A stretch of DNA of 64,000 nucleotides from positions 64,001 to 128,000 of the forward strand of contig PKEX01000037.1 of NCBI GenBank assembly GCA_002919235.1, in the 5' to 3' direction. Positions within the stretch are counted from its first letter, which is position 1. Every line of letters begins with the position of its first letter. Origin of the DNA: Clostridia bacterium. Lineage in GTDB: Bacteria > Bacillota > Limnochordia > DTU080 > RSA5. The notes beneath the pieces are model-generated. The model was given only the letters and a program-made list of their open reading frames with translations. It ran no database searches and was not told where the DNA came from. Shown here piece by piece: positions 4,733 to 23,673 of the stretch. Both the position numbers and the translations under genes were made by a program.

Positions 4733-5689
4733 TCATTTGAGGCCGAGGACGTAGTAGACGTCCTCGTAGACGACGCCGTCGACGGGAAGGCCGTAGAGCC
4801 GCTGCAGCTCCTTCACCGCCGCAGCGCTGTTGGGGCCGAAGCGGCCGTCGGCGCCTTGCGCGTCGAAGCCCAGCTCCTGAAGGCGAAGCTGGACGAGGAC
4901 CACGTCCCGGCCGGTCGCGCCTTGGACGATCTGCCGGTCGAAGGAGACGCCGGGGAGGTCGCCGATGATCTTCACCCGGGTGCCGGTGGGAACCCACTCG
5001 TACAGCTCCTCGACGTCGCGGTTGAACATGCGGATGCAGCCGGCGCTGGCCCGGGTGCCGATGGACCAGGGCTTGTTGGTGCCGTGGATGCCGTAGATGC
5101 CCCAGGGGACGTTCAGTCCCATCCAGCGGGTGCCGAAGCCACCGCCCCAGTTGCGGGCCTTATGGACGATCTTCCATTCGCCCACCGGCGACAGGGTGAA
5201 CTGGTTGGGCCGGCCGACCGCCACCGGATAGGTCTTGTACGGCTCGCCGTTTACGTAGAGGGTCAGCTGCAGCTTGTGAGTGTCGACGACGATCATCATC
5301 TCGCCTTCCGGCTTCTCCCGGGGCGGGCTCGCCGCGGGCAAGGTCAGGTCGGGTCCCAGGGCGGCCCAGGTGGCGGGCCCCACGACGCCGTCGGGCTCCA
5401 GCCCCGCGGCGGCTTGGAAGCGGCGCACCGCCGCCTCGGTCTCGGGGCCGTACACGCCGTCGATCGCGGGAGGTCCAAATCCCAGGGTCTTGAGGCGCTC
5501 CTGGAGCTCCACCACGTCGATCCCGGTCAGGGGCGGCGTGTGCAGGGAGAGCGCCCGCTCCGGCCCGCAGCCCGCAGCCGGATCCGTCTGGGCCGGGACG
5601 GTCTCGGCCCGGACGGGCGCGCGGCAGAGAAGGGACAGCAGGACGGCCACCACCGCCCCGATCCGGACCCAAGGCCAAAGACGAGACAT
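4733..5689 (-). CDS. L,D-transpeptidase with two peptidoglycan-binding domains
   Basis: This is a 318-residue exported enzyme of the YkuD family, which makes 3-3 peptide cross-links or remodels peptidoglycan. A signal peptide (residues 1-28, ending APVRA) is followed by a peptidoglycan-binding repeat (about 55-110), the YkuD catalytic domain (about 128-240) and a second peptidoglycan-binding repeat (about 255-318). The catalytic signature is HGTNKPWSIG plus SAGCIRM, with the nucleophilic cysteine near residue 218. It is divergent from spoIIP and precedes the solute-binding-protein gene. The upstream sigma-E-like promoter suggests expression in the mother cell during sporulation. Confidence 0.92.
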   Translation of the reverse strand: MSRLWPWVRIGAVVAVLLSLLCRAPVRAETVPAQTDPAAGCGPERALSLHTPPLTGIDVVELQERLKTLGFGPPAIDGVYGPETEAAVRRFQAAAGLEPDGVVGPATWAALGPDLTLPAASPPREKPEGEMMIVVDTHKLQLTLYVNGEPYKTYPVAVGRPNQFTLSPVGEWKIVHKARNWGGGFGTRWMGLNVPWGIYGIHGTNKPWSIGTRASAGCIRMFNRDVEELYEWVPTGTRVKIIGDLPGVSFDRQIVQGATGRDVVLVQLRLQELGFDAQGADGRFGPNSAAAVKELQRLYGLPVDGVVYEDVYYVLGLK

Positions 5690-5731
5690 GACTGGCGATC
5701 ACTCCTGCGTGCTGTGGTCTCTCCGTCACGG

Positions 5732-5762
5732 TACGCGTATGGCTTGGGCGGGCCTGTTATGA
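5732..5762 (-). promoter_or_regulatory. Sigma-E-like promoter of the L,D-transpeptidase operon
   Basis: On the minus strand TCATAAC (5762-5756), 14 bases, then CATACGCGT (5741-5733) resembles the sigma-E pattern TCATATT-N14-CATACAAT. The coding start is 43 bases downstream. The -10 also partly fits sigma-K (CATAnnnTA with one extra base). Confidence 0.5.
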
Positions 5763-5770
5763 CAGGCCCG
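5749..5770. repeat. Inverted repeat between divergent sporulation promoters
   Basis: CGGGCCTGT (5749-5757) and ACAGGCCCG (5762-5770) form a perfect 9-base dyad with a 4-base centre. No T-run follows on either side, so it is not a normal terminator. It overlaps the -35 of the minus-strand promoter and lies just upstream of the plus-strand one, the position of an operator. Confidence 0.55.
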
Positions 5771-5779
5771 GACAAACCT

Positions 5780-5809
5780 TCATACCGGGAGGACGGCCCC
5801 CATATACAT
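5780..5809 (+). promoter_or_regulatory. Sigma-E-like promoter of spoIIP
   Basis: TCATACC (5780-5786), 14 bases, then CATATACAT (5801-5809) matches the sigma-E pattern. spoIIP is a known sigma-E gene in Bacillus. The ATG at 5834 lies 25 bases downstream with GAGGGGGCGG as ribosome binding site. Confidence 0.6.
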
Positions 5810-5833
5810 GGCCCGTGAGGGGGCGGTCCATCG

Positions 5834-7228
5834 ATGGGTTTCAGAGCGCACCCGGCGGCACACCGGGACGGTTCCAGCTTCACCCGGTCTTGGGCGCGGA
5901 CGAGCCTGGTCTCCGCAGTGCGGGCCGCCGCCGTCCTGGTCTTGCTGGTGCTCTTGGCCGCCTCCGGATGGTGGATCGGGGCGGGGATGACGTCGGGCGT
6001 CCTCTGGGAGCAGCTGGGCGCGGGGTGGCACCTGGCGGCCGCCGCCTGGCGGCGGGCTGCGGCCCGCGCGGCGACCGTGGACGGGGAGACGGCAAAGAGG
6101 CTGGTCCAGAGTGTCCTGCCGGCGGCGAAAGCAGGAGAGGACGGGGTAGGGGACGGAGAGAGACCGCTCTTGGCCTGGGTCCGGGCGGCGACGGGATATG
6201 ACTTCACCTCGCCCCGCAGCTTCCTGGAGGCAGAGGTCGCGGGCCGCAGGTCTCCGGTCCGGCTCAACGCGGGCGCTTTCGGGCAGGCATTCCGGGCCGC
6301 CCCGGGCCGCGAGAGCCGGCGAGAAGGGGAAAGCGGGAGCGGCACCGCGGGCGGCGGCGCCGGCGGGGACGGCCGGCCCGAGGCGGGCCCCGCGGCGCTG
6401 GCCCGGAGCACGGAGGCGCCTTCGGCCGAAGTCCTTTCCCGGCAGGAAAGAGAGCCGGTGCCCGCCCGGTTGGCGCCGGTCCTCGCCATGGACTGGGGAA
6501 ACGAGCCCCGGGTCCTCATCGTCCACAGCCATACGTCCGAGTCGTACGTCACCGTGCCGCCCGACCCCCGGGCCGATGCCCGCAACCACGTCTACAACGA
6601 TTCCGACACCGGGATTACCCGTGTCGGCCGGGCATTGGCGGAAAAGCTCCGGAACGTGTACGGCATCGGCGTCATCCACTCGACCCGGGTGCACAACTGG
6701 CCCCATCACTGGGAGGCTTACGTCAATTCCCGGGAGACGGTCAAGGAGTACCTCGAGGCGTACCCGTCCATCCAGATCGTGTTGGACGTGCACCGCCAGG
6801 GGATCGAAAACGCGGTGTGGGCCACGGCGGTGAGCGGGGTGCAAGCGGTGAGCGTCGAGGTGATCTACACCACCTCGCAGGAGTTCCCGTACGCTTCCCA
6901 CCCCAACTGGAGGTGGAACGCGGCCTTTGCCGAGGTGCTGGCCCGGGCCATGGAAGAGCTTCACCCGGGGCTGCTCCACCGGGTGACGGCGGTGCGGGAC
7001 CGCCGCTACAACCAGGACTTGCACCCCCATATGGTCCTCCTCGAGGTGGGCAACTACCTCGACCGGGAGGAACACGCCCTGGCGGCGGCCGAGCTCTTGG
7101 CGGACGCGGTGGCTTTGGCCCTGTACGAGGTGGACCGGGGAACCGTGGAGGCGCTGGCGGCCCCCCGCGCGGTGACCCCGCCTCAGCCCCCGAGGCCCGC
7201 GCCTTCCTCCCCGCCCCCGCGCCGCTGA
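5834..7228 (+). CDS. spoIIP: Stage II sporulation protein P
   Basis: SpoIIP is a peptidoglycan amidase and endopeptidase that works with SpoIID and SpoIIM to thin septal wall and drive engulfment. The product is 464 residues, with one N-terminal membrane helix (about 34-54), a low-complexity Gly/Ala/Arg region (about 145-205) and the catalytic domain (about 215-430). Metal-site and catalytic motifs are HSHTSESY (about 233), DVHRQG (about 318) and LLEVGNYLDREEHA (about 401). The proline-rich tail is encoded over the 3' end of convergent murJ. The sigma-E-like promoter at 5780-5809 supports mother-cell expression. Confidence 0.95.
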   Translation: MGFRAHPAAHRDGSSFTRSWARTSLVSAVRAAAVLVLLVLLAASGWWIGAGMTSGVLWEQLGAGWHLAAAAWRRAAARAATVDGETAKRLVQSVLPAAKAGEDGVGDGERPLLAWVRAATGYDFTSPRSFLEAEVAGRRSPVRLNAGAFGQAFRAAPGRESRREGESGSGTAGGGAGGDGRPEAGPAALARSTEAPSAEVLSRQEREPVPARLAPVLAMDWGNEPRVLIVHSHTSESYVTVPPDPRADARNHVYNDSDTGITRVGRALAEKLRNVYGIGVIHSTRVHNWPHHWEAYVNSRETVKEYLEAYPSIQIVLDVHRQGIENAVWATAVSGVQAVSVEVIYTTSQEFPYASHPNWRWNAAFAEVLARAMEELHPGLLHRVTAVRDRRYNQDLHPHMVLLEVGNYLDREEHALAAAELLADAVALALYEVDRGTVEALAAPRAVTPPQPPRPAPSSPPPRR

Positions 7229-20109: not shown

Positions 20110-21516
20110 TCAGCCGGGCAAGAAGGGATGGGGCAGTCCGTCGTCGTCGCACTTGAGCCGGAGCTGCTCCCTGCGGCCGTCGACCATGAAGATGACGTGC
20201 TCCGCGATGTTGCTCGCGTGGTCGGCGACCCGTTCGAGGTAGCGGGCGACGAAGAGCAGGTAGAGGGCTTGTCCGGCCCGGTAGGCGTCGCCCCCGTCGG
20301 TGATGAAGCCCAGCAGTTCTTCGAAGAGCTCACGGTAGAGGGCGTCGACCCCTTTGTCCGCCTCGCACACCTTTCGCGCCAGCTCTACGTCGCGCCGGAC
20401 CATGGCGTCGAGGCTGTGGCGCACCATTTCCTGGGCCTTTTCCGCCATCCTCGGGATGTCGATGAGCGGCTTGATCAGGGGATCTTCGCCGATGGCCAGC
20501 GTCACTTCGCTGATGTTGATGGCGTGGTCGGCGATGCGGCCCAGATCGGTCGCGGCTTCGATCACCGTGGTGAGCACTCTGAGGTCGCGGCTGACGGGAG
20601 CGGTCCGGGCGATGAGGCCCAGAGCCCGCTGGTGAATCTCCAGCTTCCTTTGATAGATGTCGAACCGCCCGTCGATCACTTCCCGGGCGATGGTGAGGTT
20701 CTGCCCGGTGAGCGACTGGACCGCCATGTGGATGGCCCGCTCGGCCTTGCTGCCCAAGGTGAGGAGATCGTGGTAGAGGCTTTCCAGGGCCATGCCGGCG
20801 CTGCTGCCGGTGGCGGCCGCCAGGGTGTCCTGGGCTTCCTGGGGCGGGGAGACGGCGACGTGATCCGCCGCGCCGTCGGCCAGCACCTTCCCGCCGGAGA
20901 GGACGATGAGGCGCTTGGCCGTAGGCGCCACCCGGCGGAAAGCCCGGGAGACCCAGAAGACGGGGATCTCTTCACCGATGGCGGTGATCACCTGCCGGAA
21001 GCGGTCGGCCTCGTCCGGATCGAGATCCACGGTGGCGTCGTCGATGAGGAGGTAGGGAGCCCGCCGCACCAAGGCGCGACAGGCGAGGAGCATCCGCCGC
21101 TCGGCTTCCGTGAGCTCGGAGACGGGGTGGGAAAGGCGGCCTTGAAACTCCTCCCACAGGCCCGAGATCCGCAGCGCGTCGTTCACCCGCCGCTCGACTT
21201 CGGTTCCCACGGGACCGGGGTGCGTGAGGACTCGAAGGAGGGTGCCCCGAAGCGGTGGGGCGCCGGGACCCAAGGGGGGTTCCACCCGCTCCTTCGGCAG
21301 GGGTCCGCCCGCCACCTGGAGGGTGCCCGATGCCGTGACGCCCCGGGGGAGCCGTCCTGCCAGCGCGGCCAGCAGGAGGCTCTTGCCCGCGCCCTGGGGT
21401 CCGACGATGCCGACGACTCCTGGTTCCGTCACCGCCAGCGACAGCGAGAGCAGCGTCCGCTGGCGGGCATCCTGCAGGGTATACTGGTCAAAAGCGATCA
21501 TCGATGACGCGGACAA
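20110..21516 (-). CDS. Degenerate ABC ATPase (PstB-like) fused to PhoU
   Basis: This 468-residue protein joins two domains. Residues about 6-215 follow the PstB fold, with an intact Walker A (GPQGAGKS, 39-46). The Q-loop glutamine is not recognisable, the LSGGQ signature is replaced by SELTEAE, Walker B ends LLIDDAT (Asp in place of the catalytic Glu), and the H-loop histidine is replaced (WVSRAF). Residues about 240-460 carry PhoU three-helix repeats, with LGRIADHAINI and LERVADHASNIAEHV as the two metal-binding motifs. TTG 21516 has GGAGG eight bases upstream; ATG 21501 is an alternative. It follows phoR by 19 bases. The likely role is nucleotide-sensing PhoU control of PhoR, not transport. 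Confidence 0.85.
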   Translation of the reverse strand: MSASSMIAFDQYTLQDARQRTLLSLSLAVTEPGVVGIVGPQGAGKSLLLAALAGRLPRGVTASGTLQVAGGPLPKERVEPPLGPGAPPLRGTLLRVLTHPGPVGTEVERRVNDALRISGLWEEFQGRLSHPVSELTEAERRMLLACRALVRRAPYLLIDDATVDLDPDEADRFRQVITAIGEEIPVFWVSRAFRRVAPTAKRLIVLSGGKVLADGAADHVAVSPPQEAQDTLAAATGSSAGMALESLYHDLLTLGSKAERAIHMAVQSLTGQNLTIAREVIDGRFDIYQRKLEIHQRALGLIARTAPVSRDLRVLTTVIEAATDLGRIADHAINISEVTLAIGEDPLIKPLIDIPRMAEKAQEMVRHSLDAMVRRDVELARKVCEADKGVDALYRELFEELLGFITDGGDAYRAGQALYLLFVARYLERVADHASNIAEHVIFMVDGRREQLRLKCDDDGLPHPFLPG

Positions 21517-21535
21517 ACGTATCGCCTCCGCGAAA

Positions 21536-22942
21536 CTACCCTTCCCATTCGGGGAGCGGGGTTTCTTCAGGGTGCAGCGGGAGCGTGATGATAAACCGGC
21601 TGCCCTTGCCGAGACGGCTCTCCACCCGGACGGAGCCCTGGTGCCGCTGGACGATGTGCCGCACGATGGCGAGCCCCAGGCCGGTGCCGCCTTCCGCCCG
21701 GGAGCGGGCCTTGTCGACGCGATAGAAGCGCTCGAAAATGCGGGGCACGTGCTCCGACGGGATTCCGGGACCATCGTCGGCTACCGAGATCTCGATGTAG
21801 TCTGCGGCCACCTTGCGAGCCTCTACCCAGACGTGGCCGCCGCTGGGCGTATACTTGATGGCGTTGTCTAACAGGTTCATCAGCGCCTGCCCGAACATGT
21901 CGCGGTCGACCGGAACGGCGGGCAGGCCCGGGGGAATCCGGATCTCCGGGACGATGGCCTTCTTGTCGGCTTGCGGGCGAAGCCGTTCGACGACGTCGGA
22001 GACCAACTCCAAAAGATCGACGTCCTGGCGGGCCAGGGGCGCGGTGTCCGACTCGAGCCGCGAGAGGTCCAGCAGGTCCCCGATGAGTGCTTCGAGCCGG
22101 TCGGCCTCGTCCTTGACGATCCGCAGAAAGCGCCGCTTCGTCTCCTCGGGCAGTTCATCTTCGAGGAGCGTTTCGACAAACCCTTTTATCGACGTGATGG
22201 GCGTCCGCAGTTCGTGGGAGACGTTGGCGACGAACTCGCTTCGGACTTTTTCGAGATATCGCAGGCGGGTGACGTCGAAGAGGAGCACCGCGGCGCCCAG
22301 CAGCGGTCCGTCGCCGTGGGCGAAAATGGGCTCGATGCGCACCCGGTAGCGGGCCGGGCGGGTGGTGGCGATGACGTCGACGTCCAGCGCGGCGCCGGTC
22401 CCCTGTTTCAGGGTGACCATGAGGGCTTCTTCGATCTGGTGGTCCCGCAGCACCTGGAGGAACGGCCGGCCCACCGCCTCCTCCTCGGCGATCTGCAGCG
22501 CTTTCACGGCCGAGCGGTTGATGCGGCGGACCTTGCCCGAAGCGTCGACCAGGATGGCCGGGCCGTAGAGGGCCTGGAAGACCGCGCGCAGCGCTTCCTC
22601 CGACTCCATCCCTCGCCAGAGCGCCTGGACCAGGTGGTCGTGGCGGCGAGCCAGGGCGGCCGCGACGCCGTCGAAGCCCCGGCCGGCCACGGTGAGGATC
22701 GGGCGGACGAAGGCGGGATCTCCCACCCGTGAGGCCGCCTCCCCCAGGCGGGCCAGGGCGTCCGCCTCGGCGAGGCTTCGAAGCCGCGAGGCGGCGAGGG
22801 CCAGAGCGACGAGGGCCAACCCTACGGCGATCCCCGGCCACGCACCTCGCGCGAGGCTCGAGCCCAGCAGCGCGGCGCCGGCGAGAGCGGCCAGCGGCGC
22901 CGCCCACGGCATGTCCACGGCGCGGCGGACCCCGGGGTTCAC
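21536..22942 (-). CDS. phoR: Phosphate-type sensor histidine kinase PhoR
   Basis: This is a membrane histidine kinase of 468 residues. Two N-terminal membrane helices (about 12-30 and 34-52) have almost no external loop. A linker and PAS domain (about 115-225) follow, then the dimerisation helix with NVSHELRTPITSIKGF (His near 243) and the ATPase domain with NLLDNAIKYT, DDGPGIP and GGTGLGLAIV. The absence of an extracellular sensor fits PhoR-type kinases that receive input through PhoU. GTG 22942 overlaps the phoP stop by four bases. The family also includes WalK/ResE-like kinases, so the phosphate assignment leans on the PhoU gene that follows. Confidence 0.88.
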   Translation of the reverse strand: MNPGVRRAVDMPWAAPLAALAGAALLGSSLARGAWPGIAVGLALVALALAASRLRSLAEADALARLGEAASRVGDPAFVRPILTVAGRGFDGVAAALARRHDHLVQALWRGMESEEALRAVFQALYGPAILVDASGKVRRINRSAVKALQIAEEEAVGRPFLQVLRDHQIEEALMVTLKQGTGAALDVDVIATTRPARYRVRIEPIFAHGDGPLLGAAVLLFDVTRLRYLEKVRSEFVANVSHELRTPITSIKGFVETLLEDELPEETKRRFLRIVKDEADRLEALIGDLLDLSRLESDTAPLARQDVDLLELVSDVVERLRPQADKKAIVPEIRIPPGLPAVPVDRDMFGQALMNLLDNAIKYTPSGGHVWVEARKVAADYIEISVADDGPGIPSEHVPRIFERFYRVDKARSRAEGGTGLGLAIVRHIVQRHQGSVRVESRLGKGSRFIITLPLHPEETPLPEWEG

Positions 22943-23673
22943 CGGGCTTCCCCTCGGGAAGGCGCGCCGCCGGGCTCGCCGGGTTCCGCGGGCACGTCAT
23001 CCTTGAACCGGTAGCCCACGCCGTGCACCGTCTCAATGTACGTGGGATGCTGCGGGTCGTCGCCGATCTTTTGCCGGAGCCGCCGGATGTGGACGTCCAA
23101 GGTGCGCGTGCCGCCGGCGAACTGGTAGCCCCACACCTCTTCCAGCAGGGTGTCGCGGGAGACAGGCTGGCCCCGGCGGGCCATCAACAGCGCGAGAAGA
23201 TCGAATTCCTTGGGCGTCAGCTCGATCTCCCGGCCACCCACCACGAGCCGCCGGCGCTTGAGGTCCAGGTGGAGCTCGCCGGCGATGAGGTTGTCGGCCC
23301 CTTCCTCGTAGTGGGAGCGGCGCAGGACGGCCCGGATGCGGGCCACCAGCTCCTTGGGGCTGAAAGGCTTGGTGACGTAGTCGTCGGCGCCCAGTTCAAA
23401 GCCGCGTACCCGGTCGTCCTCCTGGCCTTTGGCCGTCAGAATAATGATAGGCACGTCGGAAGCTTGCCGCACGCGCCGGCACACCTCGAAACCGTCGAGG
23501 CCGGGCAGCATCAAGTCGAGGAGGAGCAGGTCCGGGTGGTTGGCGTTGAAGATGGCCAGGGCCTCGCGCCCGTCCGCCGCCGTCAGCACCTGCATCCCCT
23601 CGCGGGTCAAGTGGTACGTGATGAGCTCGGAGATGGCCGGGTCGTCCTCGATCACCAAGATCCTGGGGGCCAT
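22939..23673 (-). CDS. phoP: OmpR-family response regulator PhoP/PhoB
   Basis: This 244-residue regulator has a receiver domain (1-120; acidic pocket D10/D11, phospho-acceptor D53, Lys near 103) and a winged-helix DNA-binding domain (about 135-230), including LTPKEFDLLALL and RTLDVHIRRLRQKIG. ATG 23673 has AAGGGAG ten bases upstream. It is the first gene of the minus-strand phoP-phoR-PhoU-fusion operon and is divergent from mtaB. Its assignment to phosphate control comes from the linked kinase and PhoU. Confidence 0.9.
   Translation of the reverse strand: MAPRILVIEDDPAISELITYHLTREGMQVLTAADGREALAIFNANHPDLLLLDLMLPGLDGFEVCRRVRQASDVPIIILTAKGQEDDRVRGFELGADDYVTKPFSPKELVARIRAVLRRSHYEEGADNLIAGELHLDLKRRRLVVGGREIELTPKEFDLLALLMARRGQPVSRDTLLEEVWGYQFAGGTRTLDVHIRRLRQKIGDDPQHPTYIETVHGVGYRFKDDVPAEPGEPGGAPSRGEAR

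Follow-up and report, generated by a model that had tools for sequence, protein, structure and literature searches.

The window analysed here (a stretch of 64,000 nucleotides from a contig of a Clostridia bacterium) encodes, in one intact gene, a protein in which a degenerate PstB-type ABC domain is joined to PhoU. We read this protein, with a probability of about 0.6, as what remains, reduced and fused, of a Pst-like complex that did not transport: a signalling-only module that would set the balance between kinase and phosphatase activity in its own PhoR. What was part of a transporter seems to have become a component of signalling alone. The module is a variant within the Pst–PhoU–PhoR kind of signalling, which is already known. 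The reading builds on the PstB ancestry of the ABC half, lesions shared with relatives, colinear operons in which the genes are unfused, the selection acting on the gene, and an intact kinase and regulator. Coordinates are collected in Table 1.

Table 1. Features of the fusion gene and its operon, in positions of the window
Feature	Position	Strand	Details
phoB, PhoB/PhoP-type response regulator	22939..23673	-	4-nt overlap with phoR
phoR, PhoR/PnpS-type histidine kinase	21536..22942	-	PAS, HisKA, HATPase_c; catalytic boxes intact
Pseudo-PstB/PhoU fusion gene, 468 aa	20110..21516	-	single open frame; last gene of the phoB-phoR-fusion operon
Degenerate PstB-type ABC domain, residues 6-237	20806..21501	-	hhalign to PstB alignment; fold model
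Walker A GPQGAGKS, residues 39-46, intact	21379..21402	-
ABC signature position, SELTE vs SGGQQ (VSELT in place of LSGGQ)	21106..21120	-	alignment
Walker B LLIDD, residues 156-160, catalytic Glu to Asp	21037..21051	-	also in G001, G002, G004 and G005
H-loop His to Arg (FWVSR, R191)	20944..20946	-	Arg in all five relatives
PhoU domain, two repeats	20110..20805	-	TIGR02135, 166 bits (cut-off 130)
PhoU repeat 1 metal motif DLGRIAD, Glu lost (Gly)	20527..20547	-
PhoU repeat 2 metal motif YLERVAD, intact	20221..20241	-

An earlier note on this DNA had described one 468-residue frame, a fusion to PhoU encoded together with the regulator and kinase, and both descriptions hold: the minus-strand frame runs uninterrupted from 21516 to 20110 and closes a three-gene operon that spans 20110-23673. 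The fusion gene starts 19 nt past phoR, most likely at the TTG at 21516, judging by a GGAGG 8 nt upstream (the layout of GGAGG and TTG-TCC is also seen in the sister genus, G001), and ends 6 nt from a convergent metallophosphatase gene. PhoU is accompanied in the operon by PhoB and a cognate PhoR (PAS, HisKA and HATPase domains) with the catalytic residues intact. No gene for PstS, PstC or PstA is found at the fusion locus.

The ABC half keeps an intact Walker A (GxxGxGK[ST]) and is damaged at the four other positions expected of a functional PstB: the Q-loop Gln is missing in the alignment, the LSGGQ signature is gone, and the catalytic Glu and the H-loop His are replaced, all as the earlier note had listed them. 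In addition, ~19 residues directly after the Q-loop are deleted. In ABC importers such as PstB this segment faces the coupling helices and contacts the membrane subunits. Nor is the domain encoded with the permeases PstC and PstA at this locus. That the N-terminal part is an ABC domain, which the earlier note had left open to refutation, is indicated by Pfam (ABC_tran, 41.8 bits against a cut-off of 25, residues 24-162 of the fusion), by profile and by fold comparison. Its score with the PstB family TIGR00972 is only 49 bits, below the cut-off of 343.2, and single-sequence HMM scores of the fusion by itself do not clearly single out PstB as the nearest family. When the ABC half and its relatives are compared as an alignment with that of canonical PstB, hhalign gives a probability of 100 and E 4.5e-46. 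The AlphaFold model of the ABC half has a mean pLDDT of 73.7, with residues 67-99 unreliable, and a fold search with it places the E. coli PstB structures 9k3x and 9k3s nearest, a ranking that leans towards PstB because PstB rows were present in the model's input alignment. Taken from sequence profiles and the model, the ABC half is best assigned to PstB by descent, above other ABC ATPases, and the earlier proposal of a degenerate ABC domain with no transport role is supported.

The lesions are shared. Five pseudo-PstB domains from the same order (in the window's genome, G000, and in G001, G002, G004 and G005) have in common the Glu to Asp and His to Arg replacements, the missing LSGGQ and the missing Q-loop Gln, and they also have in common Walker A and the Walker B Asp; all 30 canonical PstB sequences tabulated from the class keep the motifs that these five have lost. 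The Walker A Lys/Ser, the Walker B Asp and the LD of the D-loop are invariant across the five at a domain identity of only ~25%.

The PhoU half follows the ABC domain with almost no linker, contains two PhoU domains by Pfam (PF01895, 130.5 bits) and is 88% identical to that of the sister ortholog. The claim that both metal motifs are present stands for one repeat only: an E(D)xxxD motif is found in repeat 2 (ERVAD), but repeat 1 has GRIAD at this position, and where other PhoU proteins read DLERxxD both fusion orthologs read DLGRIAD. Because this motif is broken in repeat 1, the biochemistry of this PhoU may differ.

That the gene is an error of sequencing or assembly, or a pseudogene in decay, is extremely improbable, and we found nothing in favour of it. 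In the independently assembled genome of the sister genus we found an ortholog, 76% identical, with the same join, the same lesions and the same neighbours, which refutes an artefact and disposes of two conditions under which the earlier note would have been wrong (a frameshift or assembly error joining two genes, and close homologues with a normal LSGGQ and catalytic Glu). Comparison of the two genomes gives dN/dS values, approximate since dS is near 1, of 0.27 for the ABC half, 0.09 for the PhoU half, 0.25 for prmA and 0.27 for yfcE; this purifying selection speaks against a pseudogene. As the value for the ABC half resembles those of the neighbours prmA and yfcE, this half is, by the substitution pattern, under ordinary purifying selection and not decaying.

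Only two fused sequences, those of G000 and G001, were found among the genomes compared; the order is represented by six genomes (G000-G005). In the sister family (G002, G004 and G005) the same syntenic site holds the operon phoB-phoR-X-pseudo-pstB-phoU as separate genes, with pseudo-pstB and phoU overlapping by ATGA in G002. The synteny extends through five genomes of two families: dnaK-dnaJ-prmA-rsmE-yfcE-metallophosphatase, the convergent operon, and then mtaB (where the locus reaches that far). The unfused pseudo-PstB proteins score best with TIGR00972, at 128-150 bits (cut-off 343), and still end in a PstB tail (FERPEDPRTESFLTG in G002). In the kinase tree the five locus kinases group together as a clade (98/93) that is separate from the kinases associated with canonical Pst. 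The PhoU tree does not resolve the fused and unfused pseudo loci as one clade, and the PstB tree joins the fused and unfused pseudo-PstB on long branches, so the common origin of the loci is carried by synteny and the kinase tree. G003, the remaining genome of the order, contains no pseudo module and no canonical PstB.

At 460-480 aa and with 7-13 hydrophobic segments, X is a membrane protein; it matched no Pfam or NCBIfam family. Its N-terminal half aligns weakly to PstC (E 1e-4, against 0.03 or worse for reversed decoys), with an RALGLS loop of X falling on the EAA-type loop of PstC. We also considered X as a fused PstC-PstA and rejected this, as the N-terminal half alone aligns, to PstC, and the C-terminal half matches nothing. 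No homologue of X was found in 399 genomes of the phylum, in a search with no positive control among them, and X is absent from the fused lineage, including the window's own genome.

Since the same four lesions are present in the unfused, syntenic genes, a non-transporting Pst-like complex would have lost its membrane partner and then become fused. The simplest history, whose direction of change we infer, is that a duplicated Pst lost PstS and catalysis and kept a membrane part, PhoU and its own PhoBR, and that the window's family then lost X, together with the segment that would hold X, and fused the ABC domain to PhoU.

The earlier note had spoken of a locus with no Pst transporter, and had asked for separate pstSCAB and phoU genes to be looked for. 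Its statement is right for the locus and wrong for the genome: a canonical pstS-pstC-pstA-pstB operon with its own two-component pair is found on contig C8, and its PstB scores 385 bits, above the curated cut-off. A separate Pst-type phoU was not found in the genome. In the canonical operon (L043, G000:C8:8000-20000; 5089-7152) pstB is followed after 171 nt by the response regulator and kinase, phoU having been lost; in the sister genus, which also keeps the fusion, phoU lies between the canonical pstB and the regulator. Inspection of the 171-nt gap by eye in three frames gave no relic of phoU. The only other PhoU domains in the window's genome are in an NptA-like Na/Pi cotransporter, so the fusion is the organism's only Pst-type PhoU, which speaks for a working PhoU half. 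The recognition helices of the operon's PhoB (GTRTLDVHIRRLRQK) and of the Pst-linked regulator (GTRTVDVHIRRLRQK) are nearly identical, and both regulator–kinase pairs may therefore act on the same sites; a simple scan for direct repeats at 11-bp spacing found no Pho-box-like repeats upstream of phoB or pstS. The pseudo module is also present in G002 and G004, which have a PiT transporter instead of a canonical PstB, so the module does not need Pst. Within the order, PiT (PF01384) occurs exactly in the genomes with no canonical PstB (G002, G003 and G004, as against G000, G001 and G005). The PstC and PstA frames of the canonical operon (L043 1060-5282) are 850 aa and 665 aa, far above the usual length, perhaps through large insertions or extensions.

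In the mechanism we propose, the ABC half, derived from PstB, would be unable to hydrolyse ATP by the normal mechanism and would have lost its grip on a membrane subunit, but would probably still bind ATP and Mg with no transport being powered. The PhoU half would act on the PAS domain of the PhoR of the same operon, presumably by direct contact, and would push PhoR to its phosphatase state, so that PhoB would stay off until the signal changes. That signal would be intracellular: phosphate sensed through PhoU, nucleotide occupancy of the ABC half, or both. Separate steps of this scheme have precedents. The Q160 of E. coli PstB is presumably, by our reading of the numbering, the Gln of LSGGQ. 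Transport-dead variants of E. coli PstB still signal, Q160K towards sufficiency and E179Q (the Walker B Glu) towards starvation (PMC5775613). In mycobacteria PhoU alone, with no Pst, shifts the PhoR-like SenX3 to its phosphatase state when Pi is present, and the PAS domain of SenX3 is essential (PMC12301784). In Salmonella, PhoR is controlled by an intracellular signal (PMC10055408). The fusion would bring these features together, with a PstB-type domain that could not close and fire in the normal manner, PhoU attached to it, and a PhoR that carries a PAS domain.

The earlier suggestion that the fusion might report nucleotide or energy state to PhoR fits the retained Walker A and Walker B Asp. 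In its strongest form, which we offer tentatively, the dead Pst would be an energy sensor: a site locked by Glu to Asp and His to Arg would read ATP/ADP, PhoU would relay the reading to PhoR, and the response would follow nucleotide state and not phosphate import. Walker A also persists in proteins in which bound nucleotide has only a stabilising role. The ABC half could even be a passive scaffold or dimerisation domain with no nucleotide-dependent function, the PhoU half alone being what matters; the stronger constraint on PhoU (0.09 against 0.27) and the loss of the hydrolysis motifs and signature would suit this, but we consider it improbable given that the nucleotide-site residues named above stay invariant in five domains otherwise so diverged. 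That it is an unusual but active ATPase driving transport with an unlinked permease is very unlikely: the retained Walker A and Walker B Asp speak for it, but four catalytic or coupling motifs are lost, the segment after the Q-loop is deleted, no permease is encoded at the locus and X is absent from the genome.

The fusion might also serve as the substitute PhoU of the canonical Pst, with the ABC half pairing with canonical PstB and docking PhoU on PstSCAB. In favour of this, phoU is missing from the canonical pst operon at the place it occupies in the sister genus, and the genome has no further PhoU of the Pst type. Against it, the fusion has lost both LSGGQ and the segment contacting membrane subunits, the sister genus keeps a normal phoU as well as the fusion, and the unfused module persists in G002 and G004, which have no canonical PstB at all. 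We regard the substitution as unlikely, and a signalling-only module as the better reading.

It has long been asked whether Pst–PhoU–PhoR systems signal through the flux of transport, the conformation of the transporter or a pool inside the cell. Here transport has been removed and the PstB–PhoU–PhoR line kept, in one chain with no membrane subunit. If the fusion regulates PhoR, PstB-type signalling needs neither transport flux nor membrane subunits. The fusion is also a stoichiometric PstB–PhoU pair for structural work, and the series from unfused with X to fused with no X illustrates how a transporter can become a receptor.

The fusion resembles PstB (TIGR00972) in ancestry and fold and differs by the lost Q-loop Gln, LSGGQ, catalytic Glu, switch His and post-Q-loop segment; it resembles PhoU (TIGR02135) in its two repeats and a score above the curated cut-off, and differs by the joined ABC domain and the Gly for the metal Glu in repeat 1. 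With PstSCAB-PhoU-PhoR/PhoB of E. coli it shares a PstB-type ABC domain, PhoU, PhoR and PhoB, here in one operon, but PstS, PstC and PstA are missing at the locus and ABC and PhoU are one chain. In NptA-type Na/Pi cotransporters a C-terminal PhoU domain is likewise joined to a transporter part and controls PhoPR (PMC13170248); NptA is a working secondary transporter, however, whereas the partner of PhoU here is a dead ABC ATPase. In mycobacterial PhoU1/PhoU2-SenX3-RegX3, PhoU also acts on a kinase with no Pst (PMC12301784), but is stand-alone. Enterococcus faecalis has tandem pstB1/pstB2, paralogous PstB with separate duties (PMC12096839), both similar to verified PstB ATPases and, unlike the fusion, neither fused to PhoU. 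In PubMed Central, whose coverage excludes most subscription papers, we found no PstB–PhoU fusion and no transport-free PstB signalling. A 2026 survey of PhoU proteins deliberately built its gene tree without multi-domain architectures (PMC13170248), so PstB–PhoU fusions would not appear there.

Searches of 73 genomes of the class and 399 of the phylum gave no further relatives of the degenerate ABC family, viral contigs gave none, and no place in plasmids covered 80% of the fusion. Fusion-like matches in G005, G018, G021, G042, G060 and a Nitrospinaceae genome (L047) proved to be adjacent, separate pstB and phoU genes, and most of the phylum matches that scored 172-190 bits (L157-L169) are ordinary PstB. 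Similar dead Pst systems may have arisen more than once in the class, in G018 and in a family of loci, f8. In G018, which also has a canonical Pst, a locus (L071, G018:C36, 7118-12353) reads phoB-phoR-PstC'-PstA'-PstB'-phoU; its PstB' lacks Walker A (GDRNSGIL) and the switch His, and it is probably an independent dead Pst beside PhoBR. The placement of this pseudo-PstB in the tree was discarded, its branch being too long. Family f8 (L050, L052, L056, L063, L064, L065, L069, L070, L072 and L074) consists of PstC-PstA-PstB-PhoU operons in which the single PstB carries LSPGQ (LSPGE in one), Glu to Asp and no Q-loop Gln, with His kept or lost. The three f8 loci looked at have no recognisable pstS adjoining, and the family, which forms one clade, is a second, partly degenerate type of Pst. 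Elsewhere in the phylum we observed PstB variants in which the Q-loop or the signature is altered, at L160 (G287:C87) and L163 (G299:C16): one with IIFPRP and LTAGQ, the other a tandem PstB with LSLGN and VFALP.
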